Origin: Candidatus Poseidoniia archaeon
GTDB taxonomy: Archaea; Thermoplasmatota; Poseidoniia; MGIII; CG-Epi1
Assembly (NCBI GenBank): GCA_030748895.1
Contig: JASMLC010000011.1
Span: forward strand, 1 to 49,542
Direction of reading: 5' to 3'
DNA length: 49,542 nucleotides
The position numbers and the translations under genes were made by a program. This document shows, piece by piece, positions 25,893 to 49,542 of this stretch; position 1 is the first letter of the stretch; each line of letters starts with the position of its first letter. The notes beneath the pieces were generated by a model, which was not told where the DNA came from, did no database searches, and saw only the letters and a program-made list of their open reading frames with translations.

Positions 25893-28800
25893 GTGCGTAA
25901 TATGCACAATACCAATCTGAACACGCCTGTAAGGGTCGCGCTGCTCTTTGCAGTGGGGCTAGCCATGCTCGTATTCATGCCATCAGCAGAAGCGAGCGAG
26001 TCATTCACAGTCGGAGTCACACCATCTACCCAAAATGGCGAGCCCGATGAAACACTGACCTACACAATTACTGTAGAGAACACTGGTGATAATGATGACT
26101 CCTATAACCTCACTATAACAAGTACAACCAGGGCGGGCTGGAATGAGTATATCCTTCCTACATCACTTGATGTCAAGGACGGGCAGTCTGAGACCGCCAC
26201 ACTCTATGTCGAAATTGGCGACCGGGATGATGCTCCGGCCGACATCACTGAATTCGTTACCTTCAAGACGGAATCTATTACGCTTGATGCCGGTGCCACG
26301 AGTAAGTCAGTGACTGCGAAGGTGGACCAGGTCTATGGCAACACCCTCACGATTAATGGTACAACCACGCAGAATGCGGACCCGGATGCCACTGTGACCT
26401 TCGCCGTCAAGGTGTTCAATGATGAAGGCAATGGCAAAGATACCATCACCTTCAGTCAGACCAGCTCCGGGACGGATGATTGGTCGTTTGTGTTTCCTGG
26501 AAGTGTCACGCTTGACAAGGATGAGTCAACCGAGATATCTTTTTCGGCAACTCCAGATATCAATGCTCTTGCCGGGCTGAAGAGTATTAGCCTGTTCGCC
26601 ACGTCCGAGGATAGCAGTACAGCGACATCCGTTACGGTTACCGTGCGCGTGAATAAGCTGCCTGACCTCAACGTGGTCAAGGTTGGCTCCAGCGCCGAGG
26701 ATGTTGAAGCTGGCAAGCGAGTCGATTACTCCTTCTCAGTGACTAACAAGGGCAATGCCGTCGATTCTTACGACCTCGAAATCGAGAACGGCAGCTGGTA
26801 CGACAAGGGCTGGGAAGCTTCGCTTGACAGTGATGAAATCAGCAGCCTGGACGTAGACGAGAGCATCAACCTGACCGATGTACTGGTCATCAAGGCGCCC
26901 ACGAATGCTGTGGCCGATGAGGAGGTAACTATCAGGGTCAAGGTCTCCTCGCAGGAAAACACCTCGGTCTACAAGACCTACACCTCTCGCACCACGGTCC
27001 TGCAAGACTTCGAGCCGAAATTGAAGGTGAGTGGGGGGGATACCCAGTCGGCGCCACCGGACGAGGAGGTCTCCTACACTATCAACATTACCAATGATGG
27101 TAACGGCGAGGATGACATCACCCTCTCGCTCCACGGCGGAAACGCTACTTGGGGTACCCTCGCCGAGTCTTCCTTCACCCTTGCAGCCGGCGAGAGCGAC
27201 GAGACTACCCTGCGCGTCACTGCTCCCGACGGGACACTGGCGCAGAACGGCTATTCGATTACTGTCCGGGCTACCTCCGAGGATACTACTACTAAGGCGA
27301 ACCGCGCTGTTTTCCTGAACGTCCAGCAGGTGTACGAGGTCTCCGTTTCCGTTTCAGGTGACTCGACCAAGAATGGAGACCCTGGAGCATCTGTATCGTA
27401 CACAATCACGGTCAAGAACAAGGGCAACGGCGATGATACCGTCAACCTTGCCCTGGAGGGCGACAACCCAGACTGGGGTTCAATAGTCGAGGATGTAGAT
27501 CTCGAGGCTGGGGAGTCTACTAGTGTTAATCTGTCCGTCAACATCGATGAGGAGGCTAACTTTGGCGACTATACCATTATCGTCAACGGCTCTTCCGACG
27601 AGGCATCCTCCGATGTCTACGATACTACCATAGTGACTGTGACGGTAAACAAGGAATACCAGGTTGATTTGCTGATTAACGAGGCCCAGAAGAGCGGCGA
27701 CGCCGACAGCTCAGTTGTGTATGATATTATTGTCAAGAACAAGGGCACCGGCGACGACACCATCCGTCTTTCAGTTGACGAGTGGCCTACGGGCTGGACG
27801 GCCAACTTCAATGAGACCGAGATCGACATCGGTCCCGGTAAGGATGCACCGGTGAACCTGACGGTCGCGATCAAGGAGAAGGAGGACAACCAGGCTTTCT
27901 ACGTCAATATCACCGCTATCTCGGTTGGTGCCAAGGACGAGGATGTTGATGTCAATGCAACTGCTTCCACGATTACCACAGTCAACCAGTACTACGAGTT
28001 CCGCATGACCTCCGTGCTGACCTACACCAAGGCGGACCCGGAGGACACCTTCACTGTTGACATCCTGCTTGACAACAAGGGCACTGGCGATGACACGATT
28101 GACCTAGAGGTCACCGGCCCCGAAAATGCGACCGGCTGGGTAACTGACATAACTCCCTCAGTCGAAGTTCCAGAGGGAGAAAACCGGACCGTAACCCTCA
28201 CTGTGACTGTTTCGGAAGACGCGGTCAAGGATTCCTACTACATCACGGTTACTGGGGTCTCGGCTGACGAGGCTTCCGAGACGCACGACGTAACCATCCA
28301 GGTTGATGTCAGCCAGCGCTACGAGGTGCAGATGCTGCCCCGTACGGAAACAAAGGCGGCCGAGGCCAACGACATACTGGAATTTTCGATTACCGTCAAG
28401 AACAAGGGCACTGGCGAGGACACCTTCGACCTTGAACTGGGCGGCGAGGTCGGTGTCAGCTGGGGCTCGCTCTCCAACGTCAGCCTCACGATTCCCGCTG
28501 GTGGTTCGGCGGATGTAATCCTAACGGTCGAGGTGCCAGCCGATGCGCAGCCCAAGACCGAGGGTGCCTACGAAATCCTGGTGAACGCTACTTCGGTCGA
28601 CAACACGACTGCTGTCGACTCGGTTGTACGTTATATAGACGTCGAGAAGAAAGAACTCGAAGTTGAGATAACAGCTGATTCATCCACTTCACAGGCTGAA
28701 CCGGGCGACATCGCCTATTTCGATCTCAATGTCAAGAACGTGGGTAACGATGTTGATACAGTCGTGCTGACCTTCCAAAGTGACCTCCGCAAATGGGCTA

Positions 28801-31800
28801 CCTTTGTGGAGACCGGGACCAATACGCATTCGTTGAACCTGACAGTGAACCAGCAGAAGACAGTCCGTGTCCAGGTATCTCTTCCGGAGTACAACGTTGC
28901 TACTGGCGCAAATAAGACTGCTCTGGAATCCAGCACTTATCAGGTAATAGCCAAGGCGACCACGGGTGATGGCAGCCAGTCGGAGATAGTCTCTCTCAGT
29001 ACCAGTATCCAGCAAATCTATGGTGCTGAGCTCACCGCGCAGGGCGCCAGCACTGTCATCACCTATCCCTCAACCGAGACAAGTGCTAGTGAACGCCAGG
29101 AAAAATTCAGTTTCGATGTCAAGAACCTGGGTAACAAAGTGGACACAATTGATGTGGAGGTGAGCGGTTCCGGCTCTACATTCCCTGACGATTGGGAGGC
29201 TTCCGTTCATGGATCTTCAAGCTGCTCCGGCACCTTCACTGGTTCGGTGGGTGCAAGCAATTCGAAGAAGGTCTACCTCTGTATCACGCCCGACGTGGAG
29301 ACTGAACCGGGTAACTACACCGTCTTTATCGAGGCCAAGGCACGCAACGGTGCTGACGAAGCGGTCGTCACCAACGTGACGGTCGAGGTACGTGACCCGA
29401 CCCGTAGTGTCACTCTTTCCGCGGACGAGCCGAGCCTGAATCTCGCACCCGAGGTAGGTGATACCGAGAAGAATACGGCCCGTTTCAAGGTGGTAATCAC
29501 GAACAGTGGCAGCCACGATGACAAGTTCATTGCTGAGCTGGACGATGTCCTGGGCACTGGCTGGAGCACTGACTTCTATACCAAGAACACGGCTTCTAGC
29601 AGTGACGAGTGGTCTTCCTCCGGTGAGGAAATCGAAGATGGCCAGACCGACGACCTATGGTTCATTGTCGAGGTTGATCCGGATGAGGTTGATGAGGGCA
29701 ACTACACAATGTCGGTTACGGTCAAGAACTTTGAAGAGGATATTTCACAGTCCGTTACCCTGACACTGCAGATTAGTGCCCCGCAGCGCGGCCTGACAGC
29801 GACCGTGATTGACCCTTCCAAGGAGATATCTCCTGAGTACAAGGCGTCTGGCAGTTCCACGAAGAACATGGTCAAGTTCAAGGTCAAGCTGGAGAACAGC
29901 GGCACGCACCCGGACAGTTTCATCCCCGAAGTCGAGTCAACGCTTGATGATGACTGGGAGGTTAGTTTCTACCAGGACAGCTCCAAGACACAGCCCTGGT
30001 CAACTTCACAGGGCGTTGAAATCGAGTCAGACGAGCTGGACGATTTGTGGATCTTCGTAGACGTTGACGATGGGGCTGACGAGGGCAATTACACCCTCAC
30101 TATCTCGGTCCGTAACACGGAGGATGATCCCAGTGCACGGCAGGAGTTCGAGTTGACCGTTGAAGTCCAGCGCTCCGACATAACCCTGGCCGCCAGCGAC
30201 ATCCAGCTGGAGGCTGACGGCGTCGTTGGCAATGCCTCCGCTATCAAGGATGGCGACACAGTAACCGTACTTGTCGAGGTCACCAACAGTGGTATCGCTG
30301 ACGCGGATGACGTGCAGGTGGAGATTTTCTACTACCCCAAGAAGGTACCGGAAGATCAGAATGATATCGATGACTTGATTAACAAGGGCTTCGAGCTGGA
30401 CGAGGGCAAGAACACCTACATCTATTCACTCTACAAGAAGAGCACCAACCTGAAGGCGGGCGCGACCAAGTCGCTTGCATCAGACGACTGGATCATTGAG
30501 GGTGGCGAGTGGTATGTGGAGGTACGCGTCGATTACGACGAGGATGACGTCGACAACGGCGAAATTCTCGAGACCAACGAGAACAACAACGACGCACGCT
30601 ACTCCGAACTGCTGCGCATCAAGCCCGACCTCGCCATAAGCGACCTGCGCGTTGACTCGCGCTTCGCGGGCCTCACGTCCAAGACGCCCAACGTCGACGA
30701 TCAGGTCACCTTCACGGCGACCGTGGTCAACAAGGGCGCCGCTGACGTCGATAATGCGCGGCTGTACATTACAGCTGACAGCAGCGACGAAAGTGGTGTT
30801 ATCCTCCAGGACCGTGGTACCAAAGACCACGTCGAGTTCAGCATCGATGCTGGCGCGACTGAGACCATCCGCTTCCGCTGGAAGGCGGTGAGCGGTGAGT
30901 GGACTACCTTCCGTGCTGAGGTAAACCCGAGCTGTAGCGACGTTAGCATCAACATTTTTGACTGCGAGCAGCAGGGTGACGGCGCCGGTACCGAGACCGA
31001 TCACCTGTACGACGAGCTGAAGCGATACAGCGATAACATCTATCCGGTGGGCGGCGACGCGTTCCAGCAGGATGGCGCTGAGGTCATGTTCGAAATCCTG
31101 CCCGATTTCTTCATCAAGGAAGTGAAGATGGACCCGCGCGTACCGGAAGTGGGTGACGATGTCGAGATTACGGTGGTAATCGAGAACAAGGGCAATGCCG
31201 ACTGGAAGACTGGCAGTCAGCTGCTTTCGGTGGTTTTCGAAGACGGTGTTGGTGGCACAATCACTACGCAGGTGAGCGGCGACATCAATGAGGGTGACGA
31301 GATTGAAGTCAAGTTCACCTGGAAATTCCCCGACGAGGACAAGGACTCACTGCTCCTCACCTATGAACTTGATGTTGGCAGTGGCAACTGGGAGATAGAC
31401 CAGACTGACAGTTCCAATGACGAATTTGAAGAGAACGTCGCAGTCATCCAGCCCGCAGTAGTGGGCGAGATTGCTGCCCTGGATGTCTTCAGCCGTGAAC
31501 TGGTGCGCGGCACCGGCTTCAAGGTCTACCACTTCGTGGCGCTGATGCTTGTCGCCGTCTTGGCGATCGCGGTGCCGATAGTTGTTTCCCGCCGCATGCG
31601 TCGGGGAGCTGCTGTGGTACCCGAGGAAGATGATGCAGCGCCGGAAGCGGCCGAGGCACCTCCAGTCAAGATTGCGCTCGCGATTCAGTCAGCGGTTGAT
31701 GGCAAGACCGCGAACGTGAAGGTACCCTCTAACATGCCAGTTGAGCGACTGGTCCAGAATTGCGTTGGAAAGTTCCCGCTCCCGCACGCCAACTTTGCGG

Positions 31801-31898
31801 TACATGTGAACGGCGAGGCGGTCGATTCAGGCCTCTCGCTAGCTGACGCAGGTCTTGTAGATGGCTCCGAAATCCAGCTGGTTTCGCTCGAAGAGTGA
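25893..31898 (+). CDS. Giant single-pass surface protein with about 15 Ig-like repeats and a cytoplasmic ubiquitin-like tail
   Basis: The 2001-residue protein starts with a signal peptide (VRVALLFAVGLAMLVFMPSAEA). About 15 beta-sandwich repeats of 90-120 residues follow. The first 12 carry the NEW3/COG1470-type motif (V-x-N-x-G-x-x-D-D, e.g. ITVKNKGNGDDTVNLA); the last three are CARDB-like (VEVTNSGIADADDVQVE, ATVVNKGAADVDNARL, VVIENKGNADW). A membrane span (HFVALMLVAVLAIAVPIVV, about 1880-1898) and RRMRR stop-transfer follow. The last ~79 residues form a cytoplasmic beta-grasp-like domain (PVKIALAIQSAVDGKTANVK ... LADAGLVDGSEIQLV) resembling ubiquitin/YukD folds. Many N-x-S/T sites fit a glycosylated surface protein. 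The N-terminal two thirds use visibly more A/T third positions than neighbours. The GTG start fits the TATA spacing. Role (adhesion, S-layer-like or receptor) is inferred. Confidence 0.88.
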   Translation: MRNMHNTNLNTPVRVALLFAVGLAMLVFMPSAEASESFTVGVTPSTQNGEPDETLTYTITVENTGDNDDSYNLTITSTTRAGWNEYILPTSLDVKDGQSETATLYVEIGDRDDAPADITEFVTFKTESITLDAGATSKSVTAKVDQVYGNTLTINGTTTQNADPDATVTFAVKVFNDEGNGKDTITFSQTSSGTDDWSFVFPGSVTLDKDESTEISFSATPDINALAGLKSISLFATSEDSSTATSVTVTVRVNKLPDLNVVKVGSSAEDVEAGKRVDYSFSVTNKGNAVDSYDLEIENGSWYDKGWEASLDSDEISSLDVDESINLTDVLVIKAPTNAVADEEVTIRVKVSSQENTSVYKTYTSRTTVLQDFEPKLKVSGGDTQSAPPDEEVSYTINITNDGNGEDDITLSLHGGNATWGTLAESSFTLAAGESDETTLRVTAPDGTLAQNGYSITVRATSEDTTTKANRAVFLNVQQVYEVSVSVSGDSTKNGDPGASVSYTITVKNKGNGDDTVNLALEGDNPDWGSIVEDVDLEAGESTSVNLSVNIDEEANFGDYTIIVNGSSDEASSDVYDTTIVTVTVNKEYQVDLLINEAQKSGDADSSVVYDIIVKNKGTGDDTIRLSVDEWPTGWTANFNETEIDIGPGKDAPVNLTVAIKEKEDNQAFYVNITAISVGAKDEDVDVNATASTITTVNQYYEFRMTSVLTYTKADPEDTFTVDILLDNKGTGDDTIDLEVTGPENATGWVTDITPSVEVPEGENRTVTLTVTVSEDAVKDSYYITVTGVSADEASETHDVTIQVDVSQRYEVQMLPRTETKAAEANDILEFSITVKNKGTGEDTFDLELGGEVGVSWGSLSNVSLTIPAGGSADVILTVEVPADAQPKTEGAYEILVNATSVDNTTAVDSVVRYIDVEKKELEVEITADSSTSQAEPGDIAYFDLNVKNVGNDVDTVVLTFQSDLRKWATFVETGTNTHSLNLTVNQQKTVRVQVSLPEYNVATGANKTALESSTYQVIAKATTGDGSQSEIVSLSTSIQQIYGAELTAQGASTVITYPSTETSASERQEKFSFDVKNLGNKVDTIDVEVSGSGSTFPDDWEASVHGSSSCSGTFTGSVGASNSKKVYLCITPDVETEPGNYTVFIEAKARNGADEAVVTNVTVEVRDPTRSVTLSADEPSLNLAPEVGDTEKNTARFKVVITNSGSHDDKFIAELDDVLGTGWSTDFYTKNTASSSDEWSSSGEEIEDGQTDDLWFIVEVDPDEVDEGNYTMSVTVKNFEEDISQSVTLTLQISAPQRGLTATVIDPSKEISPEYKASGSSTKNMVKFKVKLENSGTHPDSFIPEVESTLDDDWEVSFYQDSSKTQPWSTSQGVEIESDELDDLWIFVDVDDGADEGNYTLTISVRNTEDDPSARQEFELTVEVQRSDITLAASDIQLEADGVVGNASAIKDGDTVTVLVEVTNSGIADADDVQVEIFYYPKKVPEDQNDIDDLINKGFELDEGKNTYIYSLYKKSTNLKAGATKSLASDDWIIEGGEWYVEVRVDYDEDDVDNGEILETNENNNDARYSELLRIKPDLAISDLRVDSRFAGLTSKTPNVDDQVTFTATVVNKGAADVDNARLYITADSSDESGVILQDRGTKDHVEFSIDAGATETIRFRWKAVSGEWTTFRAEVNPSCSDVSINIFDCEQQGDGAGTETDHLYDELKRYSDNIYPVGGDAFQQDGAEVMFEILPDFFIKEVKMDPRVPEVGDDVEITVVIENKGNADWKTGSQLLSVVFEDGVGGTITTQVSGDINEGDEIEVKFTWKFPDEDKDSLLLTYELDVGSGNWEIDQTDSSNDEFEENVAVIQPAVVGEIAALDVFSRELVRGTGFKVYHFVALMLVAVLAIAVPIVVSRRMRRGAAVVPEEDDAAPEAAEAPPVKIALAIQSAVDGKTANVKVPSNMPVERLVQNCVGKFPLPHANFAVHVNGEAVDSGLSLADAGLVDGSEIQLVSLEE
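27411..28411 (+). repeat. DNA-level tandem repeats inside the giant surface-protein gene
   Basis: A near-identical segment, gtcaagaacaagggca followed by (a/c)cggcga(t/c)ga, occurs at 27411, 27732 and 28395, with a diverged copy at 28071, spaced about 320-340 bases. It encodes the V-K-N-K-G-x-G-D-D core of successive Ig-like repeats. More diverged copies occur near 26740, 28731, 29121 and 31180. The central copies are closest at base level, which suggests recent duplication or homogenisation. Confidence 0.7.
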
Positions 31899-44970: not shown

Positions 44971-45030
44971 GGAGGAGAAGAATGGTGCTGGGTTTGCTAT
45001 GTTCCGTCATTCAACCTCGTGATTAGAAAA

Positions 45031-46095
45031 CTAACTCTTAGGAAGAAAACCTCTATTCTTCATATCCTCCAATACACCGTGCGCTTTCCTGAAAGATTTA
45101 GCGAGGTTCCCCTCAATTTTCACTTTGATGTGCCCTCGGTTCCAGTCCTCCACTTTCTTTCCGTGCCAAATCGAATAAAGCTCGACCCCACCAAGCCGTG
45201 TCATGCCAAAGACCATTGTCCCGTAGTAAATGATTCTTGAAACGAAATCTAGGGGAATGGGATTGTTTTTCAGATGTTTTTGGAGCTCCGGGATACTGTA
45301 TTCCACATACTGTGTTTTGAATGATTTCTGAACTGCCATCTCGACGAAATTCTTGTCTGCGCTGAACAATACGATTTCCGCGTTTCGATCCCCTTCGAAC
45401 TTCTCGTAGCCTTTTATGATCTCCAAATCGTCCTTTTCTGACGGGGCTTCGTGAAACACGTAGTTCTCTTTCATATTTTTTATCTCGGCCATTCCAATCC
45501 GGTGCAGACGTGCACTCAGGGTGGGCTGGTAGAGGAAGTTGGCTGCTTGGGGAAAACCAGTCGCCAACTCTTCCACTTTCTGGAACTTGTACTTGTAGTC
45601 CATCCCCTGCATCAATTCCTCGGTTACACCTCCTGCAACCACATGCCCAATCGAATTATCCAGTTTGTGGAGTTTAAGAAAATTTATGATGTTGGAATGG
45701 AAGGAACGCCGGAGGACACTGGTGTCATAACCAACCCACAAAGGTTTGCCCCCATGAAATGTATTTCTGCTCTGCGCAGGAGACTTTAGAAAATTCTCGG
45801 CTTTTGTCGGGGGAGGGAGGCCCGCGCAGAAAAATGCCTCCATGAACTGGTAGTAGGTTGGTATATCTGACTTGCATCCTGGATTTTTTGAGATAAAGTC
45901 CCTTAACTTTGCATCATACTTATTGCGAGGGATTATCTTTGCCTTGAGGTTTCTGAGGGCAAATGTCGCCACCTTCCCAATCGGTGGAAAGAACCATTCA
46001 ATGGGAGTTTTTTTCTCATAGAGAAGATTGGTAACCAGCTGTAATTCACGGATATTGCAGTTTGGATTCCTCCACAGGGTCTTATCTTTTTTCAT
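45031..46095 (-). CDS. PIN-like nuclease, candidate effector paired with a CARF-like protein
   Basis: The 354-residue protein shows the four acidic positions of a PIN domain in its middle: GYDTSVLRR (Asp about 124), GGVTEELMQ (Glu about 159-160), EGDRNAEIV (Asp about 236) and LFSADKNFVEMA (Asp about 247, the usual last PIN motif). An N-terminal part of about 115 residues and a C-terminal part of about 90 residues are not recognised. PIN domains are metal-dependent ribonucleases. Its ATG overlaps the stop of the CARF-like gene (ATGA), so the two are co-translated. I infer that the CARF-like partner controls this nuclease. Family assignment is by motif only. Confidence 0.65.
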   Translation of the reverse strand: MKKDKTLWRNPNCNIRELQLVTNLLYEKKTPIEWFFPPIGKVATFALRNLKAKIIPRNKYDAKLRDFISKNPGCKSDIPTYYQFMEAFFCAGLPPPTKAENFLKSPAQSRNTFHGGKPLWVGYDTSVLRRSFHSNIINFLKLHKLDNSIGHVVAGGVTEELMQGMDYKYKFQKVEELATGFPQAANFLYQPTLSARLHRIGMAEIKNMKENYVFHEAPSEKDDLEIIKGYEKFEGDRNAEIVLFSADKNFVEMAVQKSFKTQYVEYSIPELQKHLKNNPIPLDFVSRIIYYGTMVFGMTRLGGVELYSIWHGKKVEDWNRGHIKVKIEGNLAKSFRKAHGVLEDMKNRGFLPKS

Positions 46096-46589
46096 TCCCC
46101 CAGAATCTCCTTCTTCAGATCATACAACGTCATGAGGTTTGATGGAACCATGGGAAAGGGCTGTCCCGTATGGTTCTTCAGGCCCTTTACATGCAGATAG
46201 TAGATTCTGTCTGCCCTATGTTTCACGTCCGCCCCCACACCCATGTACATTGCAAATGCGGACATGTACTTTCTCCCAGGCGTCATATCAATTACAACGG
46301 TATGGCCTTTTGTCTTTTCTTCATGGACTATTGATTCCAATTTTTTGGCCAAGTTAGCGAATTCAGTCTCAACAACATCATGAACAATTGGTGTTTCTTG
46401 ACTACCGTATCTGTTGAGTACGCACTGGTATCCCTTCAGTGCGGCGGCCAGATATCCCTTTTCCTTCACCATTTCGTCGGCGATCAAATGAACACGGTCA
46501 GGAATGAACCCCTCTCTCATTATCGCAGCCCAGAGAGTATTGACCCCAGCAAACTTGGAGGTACTCACATTCGTAATCCACACTTTCAT
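46092..46589 (-). CDS. Stand-alone CARF-like (Rossmann) ligand-sensor protein
   Basis: The 165-residue protein resembles one CARF domain: an N-terminal strand and loop (KVWITNVSTSKFAGVNTLWA), FIPDRVHLIADE, and the second ligand-binding motif VVIDMTPGRKYMSAFA (residues about 98-113), comparable with the D-x-T-P-G-R/T-K-x-M-S signature of CRISPR-associated Rossmann fold proteins. There is no fused effector domain; the effector may be the PIN-like protein encoded immediately downstream in an overlapping frame. Known CARF proteins bind cyclic oligoadenylates made by type III CRISPR Cas10; no such gene is in this window, so the ligand is open. Confidence 0.7.
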   Translation of the reverse strand: MKVWITNVSTSKFAGVNTLWAAIMREGFIPDRVHLIADEMVKEKGYLAAALKGYQCVLNRYGSQETPIVHDVVETEFANLAKKLESIVHEEKTKGHTVVIDMTPGRKYMSAFAMYMGVGADVKHRADRIYYLHVKGLKNHTGQPFPMVPSNLMTLYDLKKEILGE

Positions 46590-46611
46590 GAATTCGCAGA
46601 CGGTTTCAATC

Positions 46612-46619
46612 TATATAAT
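46612..46619 (-). promoter_or_regulatory. TATA box of the CARF-PIN operon
   Basis: The box tatataat lies 23-30 bases before the ATG of the CARF-like gene on the minus strand, the same spacing as the boxes of the viperin and CARF-wHTH genes. It shows that the CARF-PIN pair has its own promoter within the 57-base gap after the CARF-wHTH gene. Confidence 0.65.
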
Positions 46620-46646
46620 CATTTCTAAGTTATTGATTGAATCACA

Positions 46647-47294
46647 CTAAAATGCACGGAGCGCTACTTTTCCAAGAGGTGTGAGACGTATGAGGGTGGC
46701 TCTCCCATCGCTTTCATGGGCCATTATGTTCAGGTATCCATATCCTTCAAGACTCTTGCAGTTGTAATTGACCTTCTGGATACTTATGTTCAAGGTATTG
46801 TGGATCTGGGTTTGAGTCTGAGGTCTTTTATCGACAGATTTAACAATTTTTCTCTGGATTTCAGTCAGATCCTGAGGCGGAATTTTTGGCGGTGTGAGTT
46901 CGATGCTTTTTTCATCATCCTCTCTAACGTAGTAGGCAATCGCACCAATATAATTAGCACCGACAAGAGCCGCGCAAGACATCACCTTCGTTCCCCCTGT
47001 CACATTTACGTAAAAATTTGCTTTGGGTTCGATTTTCCGTTCTTTCCCATGGATCTCAATTATTTTTCCGATGATATCAGTGAAATTAAAGGGGTCTATC
47101 TCTATTCCTACTACCTCCAGACGCCTGAATAACTTTAGTTCATTGCTAATCTCTCGAATGGCTTTTTCGTGCGAACACAGAAGATACAATCTAGAGATGT
47201 TCTGATAGTTCTGAAACGTTTCGATTACAGGCCCCTTCGAGATGGCTTCTCCCTTCGCATGCCCTACTGTGACGAAATGAATATTCAAACTCAT
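46647..47294 (-). CDS. CARF-wHTH transcription regulator, divergent from viperin
   Basis: The 215-residue protein joins an N-terminal CARF-like Rossmann domain (IHFVTVGHAKGEAISKGPV; then FYVNVTGGTKVMSCAALVGA, with T-G-G-T-K at about 99-103) to a C-terminal winged helix (residues about 142-215: LTEIQRKIVKSVDKRPQTQT ... SLEGYGYLNIM). This is the layout of Csa3- and DUF6293-type regulators, which change DNA binding when a nucleotide ligand is bound. It is divergent from the viperin gene and shares its promoter region, so it is the likely regulator of the island. Ligand unknown. Confidence 0.82.
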   Translation of the reverse strand: MSLNIHFVTVGHAKGEAISKGPVIETFQNYQNISRLYLLCSHEKAIREISNELKLFRRLEVVGIEIDPFNFTDIIGKIIEIHGKERKIEPKANFYVNVTGGTKVMSCAALVGANYIGAIAYYVREDDEKSIELTPPKIPPQDLTEIQRKIVKSVDKRPQTQTQIHNTLNISIQKVNYNCKSLEGYGYLNIMAHESDGRATLIRLTPLGKVALRAF

Positions 47295-47346
47295 ATTAGG
47301 AATATCCTACAACAAGTATTAATAGTTTTCGGGGCAGGTCTAATTC
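47295..47346. promoter_or_regulatory. Symmetric divergent promoter and candidate CARF-wHTH operator
   Basis: The self-complementary box tattaata (47317-47324) lies exactly 23 bases from the start codon of each divergent gene (CARF-wHTH at 47294, viperin at 47347), so one box can serve both. A 13-base inverted repeat, tagga-ata-tccta (47297-47309), lies next to the CARF-wHTH start and upstream of the box as seen from viperin. That position could repress the regulator gene while acting as an upstream site for viperin. Confidence 0.6.
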
Positions 47347-48309
47347 ATGGAAGATGCTGCTGTCCTATCACAAGCCCAAGTACCGTGGGTCCAATCTCCC
47401 TCGCAAGGCTATCACAACAAGCGTCCCTCGCCCGAAGAGCCGCTATCCGTAAACTGGACAATCACCACTATATGCAATTATGAGTGCCGGTTTTGTTTTG
47501 CACGGTTTCCAGAGATCAAGATTTCGCTCTCTGCGGAAGAGATGCGACAAGTACCTCCAATGTTGAGAGATGCTGGATGCGATAAGTTGACCTTTGTCGG
47601 CGGTGAGCCGACACTGAACCGGAACCTCCCGGATCTGCTGAGGATATCCAAGGAAGCTGGATTGACAACTATGATTGTCACCAATGGCACTATACTGAAT
47701 GAACACTTTATGAATGAGAACCATGAATTTATCGATTGGCTCTCACTCAGTGTTGACAGCCAATTCGAGCAGATTGAAAAAGAACTAGGGCGAGGGACAG
47801 GAGAGCATGTTCAGCAAACCGTTGACAATGCAAAGCTTGCCCGTAAATTTGGTGTCCGGTTGAAGATGAACTCAGTGATCACCAAACTGAATTACATGGA
47901 AGACATGTCGAAGTTCATACTTGAACTCAAACCGGAACGCTGGAAGGTTTTCCAGGTGCTGGAAATTGATGGACAGAACGACCTTAGCGTCGGACCGCTT
48001 CTTCTGAAGGATGATGAATTCGAAATATTCAAGTGTAAGCACCGTTCTCTTATTAAGAAAGGATTGGATGTGGTATTCGAGGACAATGACCTAATGCGTG
48101 GTTCATATGTGATGCTAGACTCTCTCGGACGGTTCTTTAACAACCATGAAGGCGGACACGACTATGGTCCTTCCATATTCGACGTGGGTGTCTCCAAGGC
48201 TCTCGAATATGTCCGGTGGGATGTCAAAAAGTTCGTTCGGCGCGGCGGACTATATGGATGGCGTGCTGGCCCGAAGTGCGACACGCGATGCGGGAGTGTG
48301 AATGGCTAA
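47347..48309 (+). CDS. Viperin (prokaryotic viperin, radical-SAM ddhNTP synthase)
   Basis: The 320-residue protein has the radical-SAM cluster motif CNYECRFC (C43, C47, C50) preceded by SVNWTITTI, and the GGEP motif (about 85-88). The rest follows vertebrate viperin closely: WLSLSVDS, KMNSVITKLNYMEDM, RWKVFQVLEIDGQN, GSYVMLDSLGRFFNN and the C-terminal SIFDVGVSKALEYVRWD with RRGGLYGW. Viperins remove water from CTP or other NTPs to give 3'-deoxy-3',4'-didehydro-NTPs, chain terminators for viral polymerases. The ATG is 23-30 bases after a TATA box (leaderless). Its last codons overlap the start of a helicase gene. No N-terminal amphipathic membrane helix like that of animal viperin is seen. Identification is firm; NTP preference is not known. 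Confidence 0.95.
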   Translation: MEDAAVLSQAQVPWVQSPSQGYHNKRPSPEEPLSVNWTITTICNYECRFCFARFPEIKISLSAEEMRQVPPMLRDAGCDKLTFVGGEPTLNRNLPDLLRISKEAGLTTMIVTNGTILNEHFMNENHEFIDWLSLSVDSQFEQIEKELGRGTGEHVQQTVDNAKLARKFGVRLKMNSVITKLNYMEDMSKFILELKPERWKVFQVLEIDGQNDLSVGPLLLKDDEFEIFKCKHRSLIKKGLDVVFEDNDLMRGSYVMLDSLGRFFNNHEGGHDYGPSIFDVGVSKALEYVRWDVKKFVRRGGLYGWRAGPKCDTRCGSVNG

Positions 48310-49542
48310 ATTACACTACGCGAATCTGGGTAAGGAAATACCTGAGAAAACCATGGCAGACGCTTTCTATCGTTTAAACCCCATCAAACAGTATATTATG
48401 AGAGCGATAGAAACCATGGAAAATCTCCAATATAAATTGAAATGGGAACTAGTACTTGGGGTTAAACCTCCTGAAAAAGTAGATAGGCTAAGTCACCGCC
48501 CATTATCACAGAGTGAAAAACATAACCACGGCGAAATTACCACTAATAGGATTCACATATATTCGGATGACCCCCTTACCTCACAAAAAGTTTTCGATGA
48601 TTTTCACGAAGCCAAATATATACTAGATAGTTCCGGCAAACAAACATGGAAAAACTCTATAGAAGTGCTTGATACAGAACCCAAAGAGAATGTCTTGGTG
48701 GTTAACAGAATTCCAAAAACCCCACATATATACTTGCGCCCAAACACCCATGGTTTAACTCGACAAATGCGGGCCCTTCACTTCTTACAGCATTCGCCAA
48801 GGAAGGAATACCTGCCACTCATAACACTCACAGAGAATGAATACTCTGCAAAGTGGCCCCAGTTTAAAAAAACTAAAATTTCAAAGTGGGAAGTGCTCAC
48901 GGATAGAAGCAGACCGGGCACTGATTTGCAACGCGAATTCGTTCAAATCGCACTGCCCACGCCTAAAACTGGAACGCCGGACTTCGCAATACTGGAAGGG
49001 CCTCCCGGCTCTGGGAAAACAACAGCAATCTGCGAACTTGTTATCCAGGCAATCAAGAACGGTTTGAGGGTCCTGCTCTGCGCCTCCACCCACATAGCTG
49101 TTGACAATGTCCTTGAGAGATTGAAAGACCAGAAGGAAATTATCGCGGTGCGAATCGGGCTCGATATCGGCCGTGTGAAAAAGTCTGTGAGAGGGCTGAC
49201 TTTCCAGAGGCGCAAGGACACAGAGAGAGAATCCATCATCGACTATCTGAATAAACTGGGTGGGCGGAGGAACGATTCACAAGAATATCTGCTCAAGGCA
49301 TTAAGGTCGGACGAAGGTGACAATGTCATCACCAAAATCATTCTGGATTCAGCCAATCTGGTCTGCGGCACGACAATGGGTTTTCTCCAGCATCCGGACA
49401 TCAAAGCCGCGAGAGATCCGGAACCACTTTATGACATCATGATCCTTGATGAAAGCAGCAAGACCACGTTCCAGGAGTTTCTTGTTCCGGCACTTTATGC
49501 GAAGCGCTGGATACTATCCGGCGACGTGAAACAGTTATCGCC
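48302..49542 (+). CDS. SF1 (UPF1/DNA2-like) helicase, 3' end outside window
   Basis: The frame from the ATG at 48302 stays open to the last base, 413 codons, so the gene is truncated by the window. Residues 1-210 have no recognised domain. Then come Walker A GPPGSGKTT (about 233-241), motif Ia LLCASTHIAVDNVLERL, the Walker B box MILDESSKT (about 383) and motif III ILSGDVKQLSP, the order and wording of UPF1-type superfamily 1B helicases. Motifs IV-VI and any fused nuclease would be beyond the window. It starts 8 bases before the viperin stop, so it is translationally coupled to viperin. UPF1-like helicases are common in defense islands. Confidence 0.88.
   Translation, partial: MAKLHYANLGKEIPEKTMADAFYRLNPIKQYIMRAIETMENLQYKLKWELVLGVKPPEKVDRLSHRPLSQSEKHNHGEITTNRIHIYSDDPLTSQKVFDDFHEAKYILDSSGKQTWKNSIEVLDTEPKENVLVVNRIPKTPHIYLRPNTHGLTRQMRALHFLQHSPRKEYLPLITLTENEYSAKWPQFKKTKISKWEVLTDRSRPGTDLQREFVQIALPTPKTGTPDFAILEGPPGSGKTTAICELVIQAIKNGLRVLLCASTHIAVDNVLERLKDQKEIIAVRIGLDIGRVKKSVRGLTFQRRKDTERESIIDYLNKLGGRRNDSQEYLLKALRSDEGDNVITKIILDSANLVCGTTMGFLQHPDIKAARDPEPLYDIMILDESSKTTFQEFLVPALYAKRWILSGDVKQLS

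Follow-up and report, generated by a model that had tools for sequence, protein, structure and literature searches.

A canonical prokaryotic viperin on an AT-rich archaeal island and the recurrent CARF-winged-helix genes found beside archaeal viperins

Animal viperin is switched on by interferon. How prokaryotic viperins get switched on is, to our knowledge, largely open. A viperin gene close to one end of an archaeal contig raises this question together with another one, namely whether the encoded protein has, as a first-pass annotation proposed, a special affinity to the animal enzyme. We analysed the whole contig (49,542 nucleotides, hereafter the window), which belongs to a 1.41-Mb genome of a Candidatus Poseidoniia archaeon, a marine member of Thermoplasmatota. 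The explanation that we favor overall, with moderate confidence, is that of an active-looking prokaryotic viperin which resides on an acquired island, is controlled by a CARF protein and is accompanied by a helicase and an RNase arm.

The viperin and its active site

The viperin gene (47347–48309, plus strand) starts with an ATG at 47347, has no internal stop and ends with its stop codon at 48309, encoding a protein of 320 residues. The product scores 260.7 bits (E=1.3e-77) with the NCBIfam viperin model NF038283, whose cut-off is 180, and reaches E=2.4e-79 with PADLOC pVip. Viperin chains from PDB are matched at 3e-52 to 7.5e-43, mouse viperin at 1.2e-49 (phmmer). Such a match to the viperin family is far beyond chance. 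The idea that the protein belongs to some other radical-SAM family, such as MoaA-like proteins or SPASM maturases, can be virtually discounted, since what it shares with them is the Radical_SAM domain (PF04055), whereas MoaA models give only ~60 bits against cut-offs of 284–325, MoaA and SPASM models taken together ~50–65 bits against curated cut-offs of 230 to 650, and the viperin-specific C-terminal residues are present. The initial assignment to viperins thus holds at the sequence level. A scan of genome contigs yielded two relatives; the viral contigs scanned had none and phages gave weak partial matches only. Like other prokaryotic viperins (pVip), the protein is of ~300 residues, matches the family over its full length, carries the cluster motif as well as the triphosphate-binding and catalytic residues and is found in a defence-island setting. 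It differs in its neighbors, which comprise CARF genes, a PIN gene and an MkoA-like helicase, and no nucleotide kinase, the adjacent partner in viperin-kinase systems, is seen in the 1.2 kb up to the contig end. The protein is a true viperin of the canonical prokaryotic type and in no way exceptional, and the presence of this family in Thermoplasmatota has been described before (PMC12988326).

The [4Fe-4S] motif CxxxCxxC is encoded at 47473–47496 (plus strand) as CNYECRFC, and its cysteines C43, C47 and C50 (C84, C88 and C91 in mouse) are invariant in all 32 aligned viperins. Residues K80, R149, K173, N175, R198, K200 and Y254 correspond to mouse K120, R194, K220, N222, R245, K247 and Y302, which we take from structural papers to be the NTP-pocket and catalytic residues. 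All of them are conserved in the alignment; with the residues of the pocket intact, the protein is very likely an NTP dehydratase. The enzyme is almost certainly active, and a defensive role is highly probable. Using SAM and the [4Fe-4S] cluster, it would dehydrate an NTP to the 3'-deoxy-3',4'-didehydro form, the incorporation of which into RNA would terminate viral transcripts. The suggestion that the sequence might tell which ddhNTP is made did not hold up, as the choice between CTP, UTP and GTP cannot be read from it.

Relation to eukaryotic viperins

The proposed affinity to the animal protein was based on seven motifs. All seven are indeed there and in the order given, and across 32 aligned viperins the complete set is exact in just two, the window protein and mouse viperin; Nostoc viperin has four exact motifs, and those of Nematostella and Trichoderma also fall short of seven. 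However, the list was picked after the match had been seen, and therefore we compared whole proteins instead. The window protein is 39.1% identical to mouse viperin over 271 positions, a value that is usual among prokaryotic viperins: archaeal G142 has 39.0%, and two viperins of cyanobacterial plasmids, from Nostoc and Sphaerospermopsis, have 41.1% and 40.0%, respectively. Its nearest relatives are from archaea of the same class (46.2% for G532 and 45.1% for G433), followed by cyanobacteria (44.6%). The score with the eukaryotic model TIGR04278, 189.4 bits against a cut-off of 450, is just as ordinary, other prokaryotic viperins having 133–197 bits and four of them 197, 196, 185 and 185.

The phylogenetic tree gives a similar picture. 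It had four eukaryotic sequences (mouse, Nematostella and Trichoderma, by our reading of their PDB chains, and chain 9dfu) and no Asgard rows. The four formed one starred clade, and the window protein was placed outside of it, on an unresolved fork. In AU tests, a clade of the window protein with eukaryotes (p=0.20), with archaeal (p=0.37) or with cyanobacterial viperins (p=0.36) was in no case rejected. We consider it very unlikely that the window protein is closely related or sister to the viperins of eukaryotes and so tells us how the animal enzyme arose. The exact motifs and the AU result for the clade with eukaryotes are in keeping with this reading, but Nostoc viperin is closer to mouse, the TIGR04278 score is ordinary, the tree lacks a supported grouping and in published work the sister group, from which eukaryotic viperins are derived, is archaeal, mainly Asgard (PMC11291487, PMC12988326). 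Consequently, neither the striking closeness to the animal protein nor the special information on the origin of the eukaryotic enzyme survived the whole-protein comparison, and the question of that origin is not sharpened by this viperin. With eukaryotic viperin (RSAD2) it has in common the fold family and the motifs, whereas its ~30-residue N-terminal extension is without an identified RSAD2-like membrane helix.

The island and its other genes

The same genome has a full-length archaeal 16S gene (1485 bits), in agreement with the initial view of an archaeal organism. The island setting is likewise borne out by composition, as GC content, ~0.65 elsewhere on the contig, drops to ~0.445 at 45 kb and does not recover before the contig end. 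This delimits a low-GC island (45000–49542) that is open at the contig end. Viperins are rare in these archaea. Of 390 genomes sampled from the phylum, 11 have a viperin that scores over the cut-off, as have 11 of the 340 genomes of the class, and the one in the window is the only one among the 21 genomes of its family that were examined. Moreover, the PIN gene of the island (see below) is in no other of the 340 genomes of the class. The GC drop, the sole viperin in the family and the PIN gene mark this AT-rich stretch as a defence island that was acquired. A chimeric assembly or a contaminant, with a wrong host assignment, might also show an abrupt GC shift at ~45 kb, a contig ending inside the island and close relatives devoid of island genes. 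We nevertheless regard it as quite unlikely, because the contig is continuous, the genome is 97.3% complete and 0.38% contaminated, the nearest viperins include those of same-class archaea (46%), the CARF and PIN genes have archaeal relatives, and an acquired island accounts for the same pattern. Elsewhere in the window, a predicted secreted protein of 2001 residues (25893–31898) has a GC content of 0.55, well under the surrounding 0.65.

Two overlapping genes on the minus strand make up one pair. The product of the first (46092–46589, 165 residues) is a stand-alone CARF domain of the CARF_m1 type, matching Pfam Cas_NE0113 with 30.6 bits (cut-off 23) and positions 1–153 of the PADLOC model CARF_m1 CARF_PIN with 8.2e-33. 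The second (45031–46095, 354 residues), which overlaps the first by 4 bp, matches positions 214–455 of the same model with 1.2e-25. Its product, a predicted PIN-domain nuclease, has four acidic residues in common with haloarchaeal homologues, which match PIN_4 weakly; a single-sequence AlphaFold2 model was poor (pLDDT 33). With the CARF_m1 domain and a PIN domain with four acidic residues spread across two genes, and with the two products being two halves of one PADLOC model, 45031–46589 is by these matches a split CARF-PIN effector. CARF_PIN effectors are single fused proteins, whereas here two genes that overlap encode the halves, and haloarchaeal plasmid pairs are split likewise. The CARF_m1/PIN pair is also present on 11 haloarchaeal plasmids, and in the loci that we opened (L070–L073) its neighbors are VWA, HEAT-repeat and often ADP-ribosylglycohydrolase genes, an arrangement that resembles a conserved operon.

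On the other side, the viperin gene overlaps by 8 bp a gene (48302–49542, plus strand) for an SF1 UPF1/MkoA-like helicase, which is cut by the contig end at 49542. Its N-terminal part of 413 residues matches AAA_11 with 3.3e-26 and PADLOC MkoA with 4.9e-38 over 202 aligned residues. Considering the overlap, viperin and helicase are probably co-transcribed. The protein resembles MkoA of Mokosh systems in being an SF1 UPF1-like helicase; however, its partner here is viperin, only the N-terminal helicase part is covered and no MkoB-type nuclease was seen before the contig end. An MkoA-like helicase adjoins viperin also in G433 and partly in G532, and G232 has a related one. The helicase-viperin link is weakened, though, by the occurrence of the G232-type helicase in a separate cassette without viperin. 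In same-class archaea a cassette recurs (L039 10113–17189, L094 1–5675, L095 4124–9443, L099 1–3451), consisting of an IetA-like AAA ATPase, a ~1220-residue helicase and a third gene, with two or all three of them per locus and viperin beside the L039 copy only. For CoCoNuTs, it has been proposed that CARF proteins activate defence operons which include UPF1-like helicases (PMC11090510), a precedent for the control of viperin that we propose below. Those systems and the window locus have CARF proteins, a UPF1-like helicase and RNase modules in common, but the window locus has viperin and is without McrB/McrC-type genes.

CARF-winged-helix genes as neighbors of viperin

Immediately upstream of viperin, and divergent from it, lies a gene (46647–47294, minus strand) for a 215-residue CARF-winged-helix protein of the PADLOC CARF3 class (1.7e-33). 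Both its CARF domain (HFX_2341_N, 36.9 bits against a cut-off of 30; CARF_Card1, 31.8 against 24.6) and its winged helix (HTH_27, 34.4 against 22.2) exceed the curated Pfam cut-offs, whereas the Csa3 model stays below its own; a single-sequence AlphaFold2 model was poor (pLDDT 46). The product is likely a ligand-sensing transcription regulator. It is similar to regulators of the HFX_2341, Csa3 and CARF3 types in domain composition, size and divergent position beside a defence operon, the differences being that the window genome is without Cas10 (type III CRISPR) and that the target operon would be that of viperin. The 52-bp region between the two genes (47295–47346) contains the palindromic TATA-like sequence TATTAATA (47317–47324), found by an inverted-repeat search with 9-nt arms at 89%. 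Its centre is equidistant from the two start codons, at 26.5 bp, the distance expected for the TATA box if an archaeal gene is leaderless, and it may thus serve both genes. A shared leaderless bidirectional promoter is accordingly possible.

To see how common this arrangement is, we used 18 viperin-bearing genomes of the phylum and scored a CARF-HTH gene as a match to PF19810. Such a match lies 0.2–2.5 kb from viperin in six of them (G000, G433, G532, G145, G075 and G337), and in a seventh, G422, the distance is 6.3 kb; near viperin in the other 11 no CARF was found. A possible join of two G522 contigs, C54 with CARF and C8 with viperin, was left uncounted. The 18 genomes have 16 PF19810 matches in total, and in G000, G433 and G532 the one at viperin is the only one found. 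Under uniform placement ~0.07 would be expected within 3 kb versus six observed, and the six represent at least three lineages; counting three only, P is ~5e-5. Uniform placement is, however, too lenient a null, CARF-HTH genes being defence-island genes whose general clustering could account for part of the signal. By an approximate count, the class has small CARF-HTH genes in 5 of its 11 viperin genomes and in 4 of the 329 others (Fisher 1.5e-6). The orientation varies: the gene is divergent from viperin in the window and on the same strand in G433, G532 and G145. None of the nine plasmid viperin loci that we opened, several of them short stretches, has a CARF-HTH gene. The linkage of CARF-winged-helix genes and viperin in Cas10-free archaea is therefore recurrent. 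This is the new element here, and a full-text literature search found no report of such a pairing.

What could the CARF protein respond to? With no Cas10 (PF22335) match in the window genome or the 17 other viperin genomes, an accessory role in type III CRISPR is ruled out, and so is a SMODS/CBASS cyclase as the signal source, there being no PF18144 match in the window genome. We infer that the protein would bind some infection-made nucleotide, for which a cyclic oligonucleotide and an RNA terminus bearing a 2',3'-cyclic phosphate are the candidates, and that in the ligand-bound form it would alter the activity of the 52-bp promoter region that the two genes share, the ligand and the direction of control both being conjectural. 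The split CARF_m1/PIN pair might then represent a second, ligand-triggered RNase arm. The chances that viperin is under the control of the CARF-HTH protein seem to us evenly balanced. Against it weigh the 11 viperin genomes with no CARF found near viperin, the varying orientation and the lack, in the window genome, of a Cas10 or SMODS match that could supply a cyclic nucleotide. The complete scheme, a CARF-gated viperin-helicase operon in archaea without Cas10 in which one nucleotide signal controls the making of another, chain-terminating one, is more speculative and, for the time being, rather doubtful. If true, the recurrent CARF-winged-helix neighbor would tie viperin to nucleotide second-messenger signalling in Cas10-free archaea, and the pairing might reveal the way in which some viperins are activated, an idea that is directly testable.

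The main alternative is that viperin acts on its own, with CARF, PIN and helicase genes being independent modules that merely share an island. CARF-HTH genes occur without viperin in G452, G226, G203 and G109, beside DHH-like and helicase genes in the first two and as a pair in the last, so the linkage may be generic defence-island clustering. The alternative gains further from the CARF_m1/PIN pair being a module of its own on haloarchaeal plasmids without viperin, from the G232 helicase cassette recurring without viperin in G415 and G315 and from the many viperins of the phylum that have no CARF nearby. On the other hand, it does not readily explain why the sole PF19810 match found in each of three genomes adjoins viperin, why CARF proximity is far over the uniform expectation and why the viperin and helicase frames overlap. 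We consider it a serious alternative, if tentatively the less probable one, and retain the CARF-controlled viperin as our preferred reading.

Several other loci deserve mention in their own right. In two Poseidoniia-like genomes, G452 (L096, 1975–7618) and G226 (L101, 337–6002), a CARF gene, a DHH-phosphoesterase-like gene (recognized by eye), a large UPF1-like helicase gene and a ~1000-residue gene stand in a row without viperin, possibly a separate CARF defence operon. Within one family of the phylum, a HEPN_LA2681 protein and CARF-HTH are followed by viperin (L041 6029–9119, L042 4951–9270, L045 15094–17336), and in L041 and L042 an unassigned gene of ~380 residues on the opposite strand lies between CARF-HTH and viperin. 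In L065 (8502–8834) and L062 (8610–8942) the CARF-HTH gene and viperin are separated by the gene of a conserved 110-residue protein of no known family. Finally, in two archaeal loci (L036 9005–9637, L038 8186–8989) the gene that immediately follows viperin codes for an NYN-type RNase (NYN; Zc3h12a-like plus SAP), a hint that the RNase partners of viperins vary.
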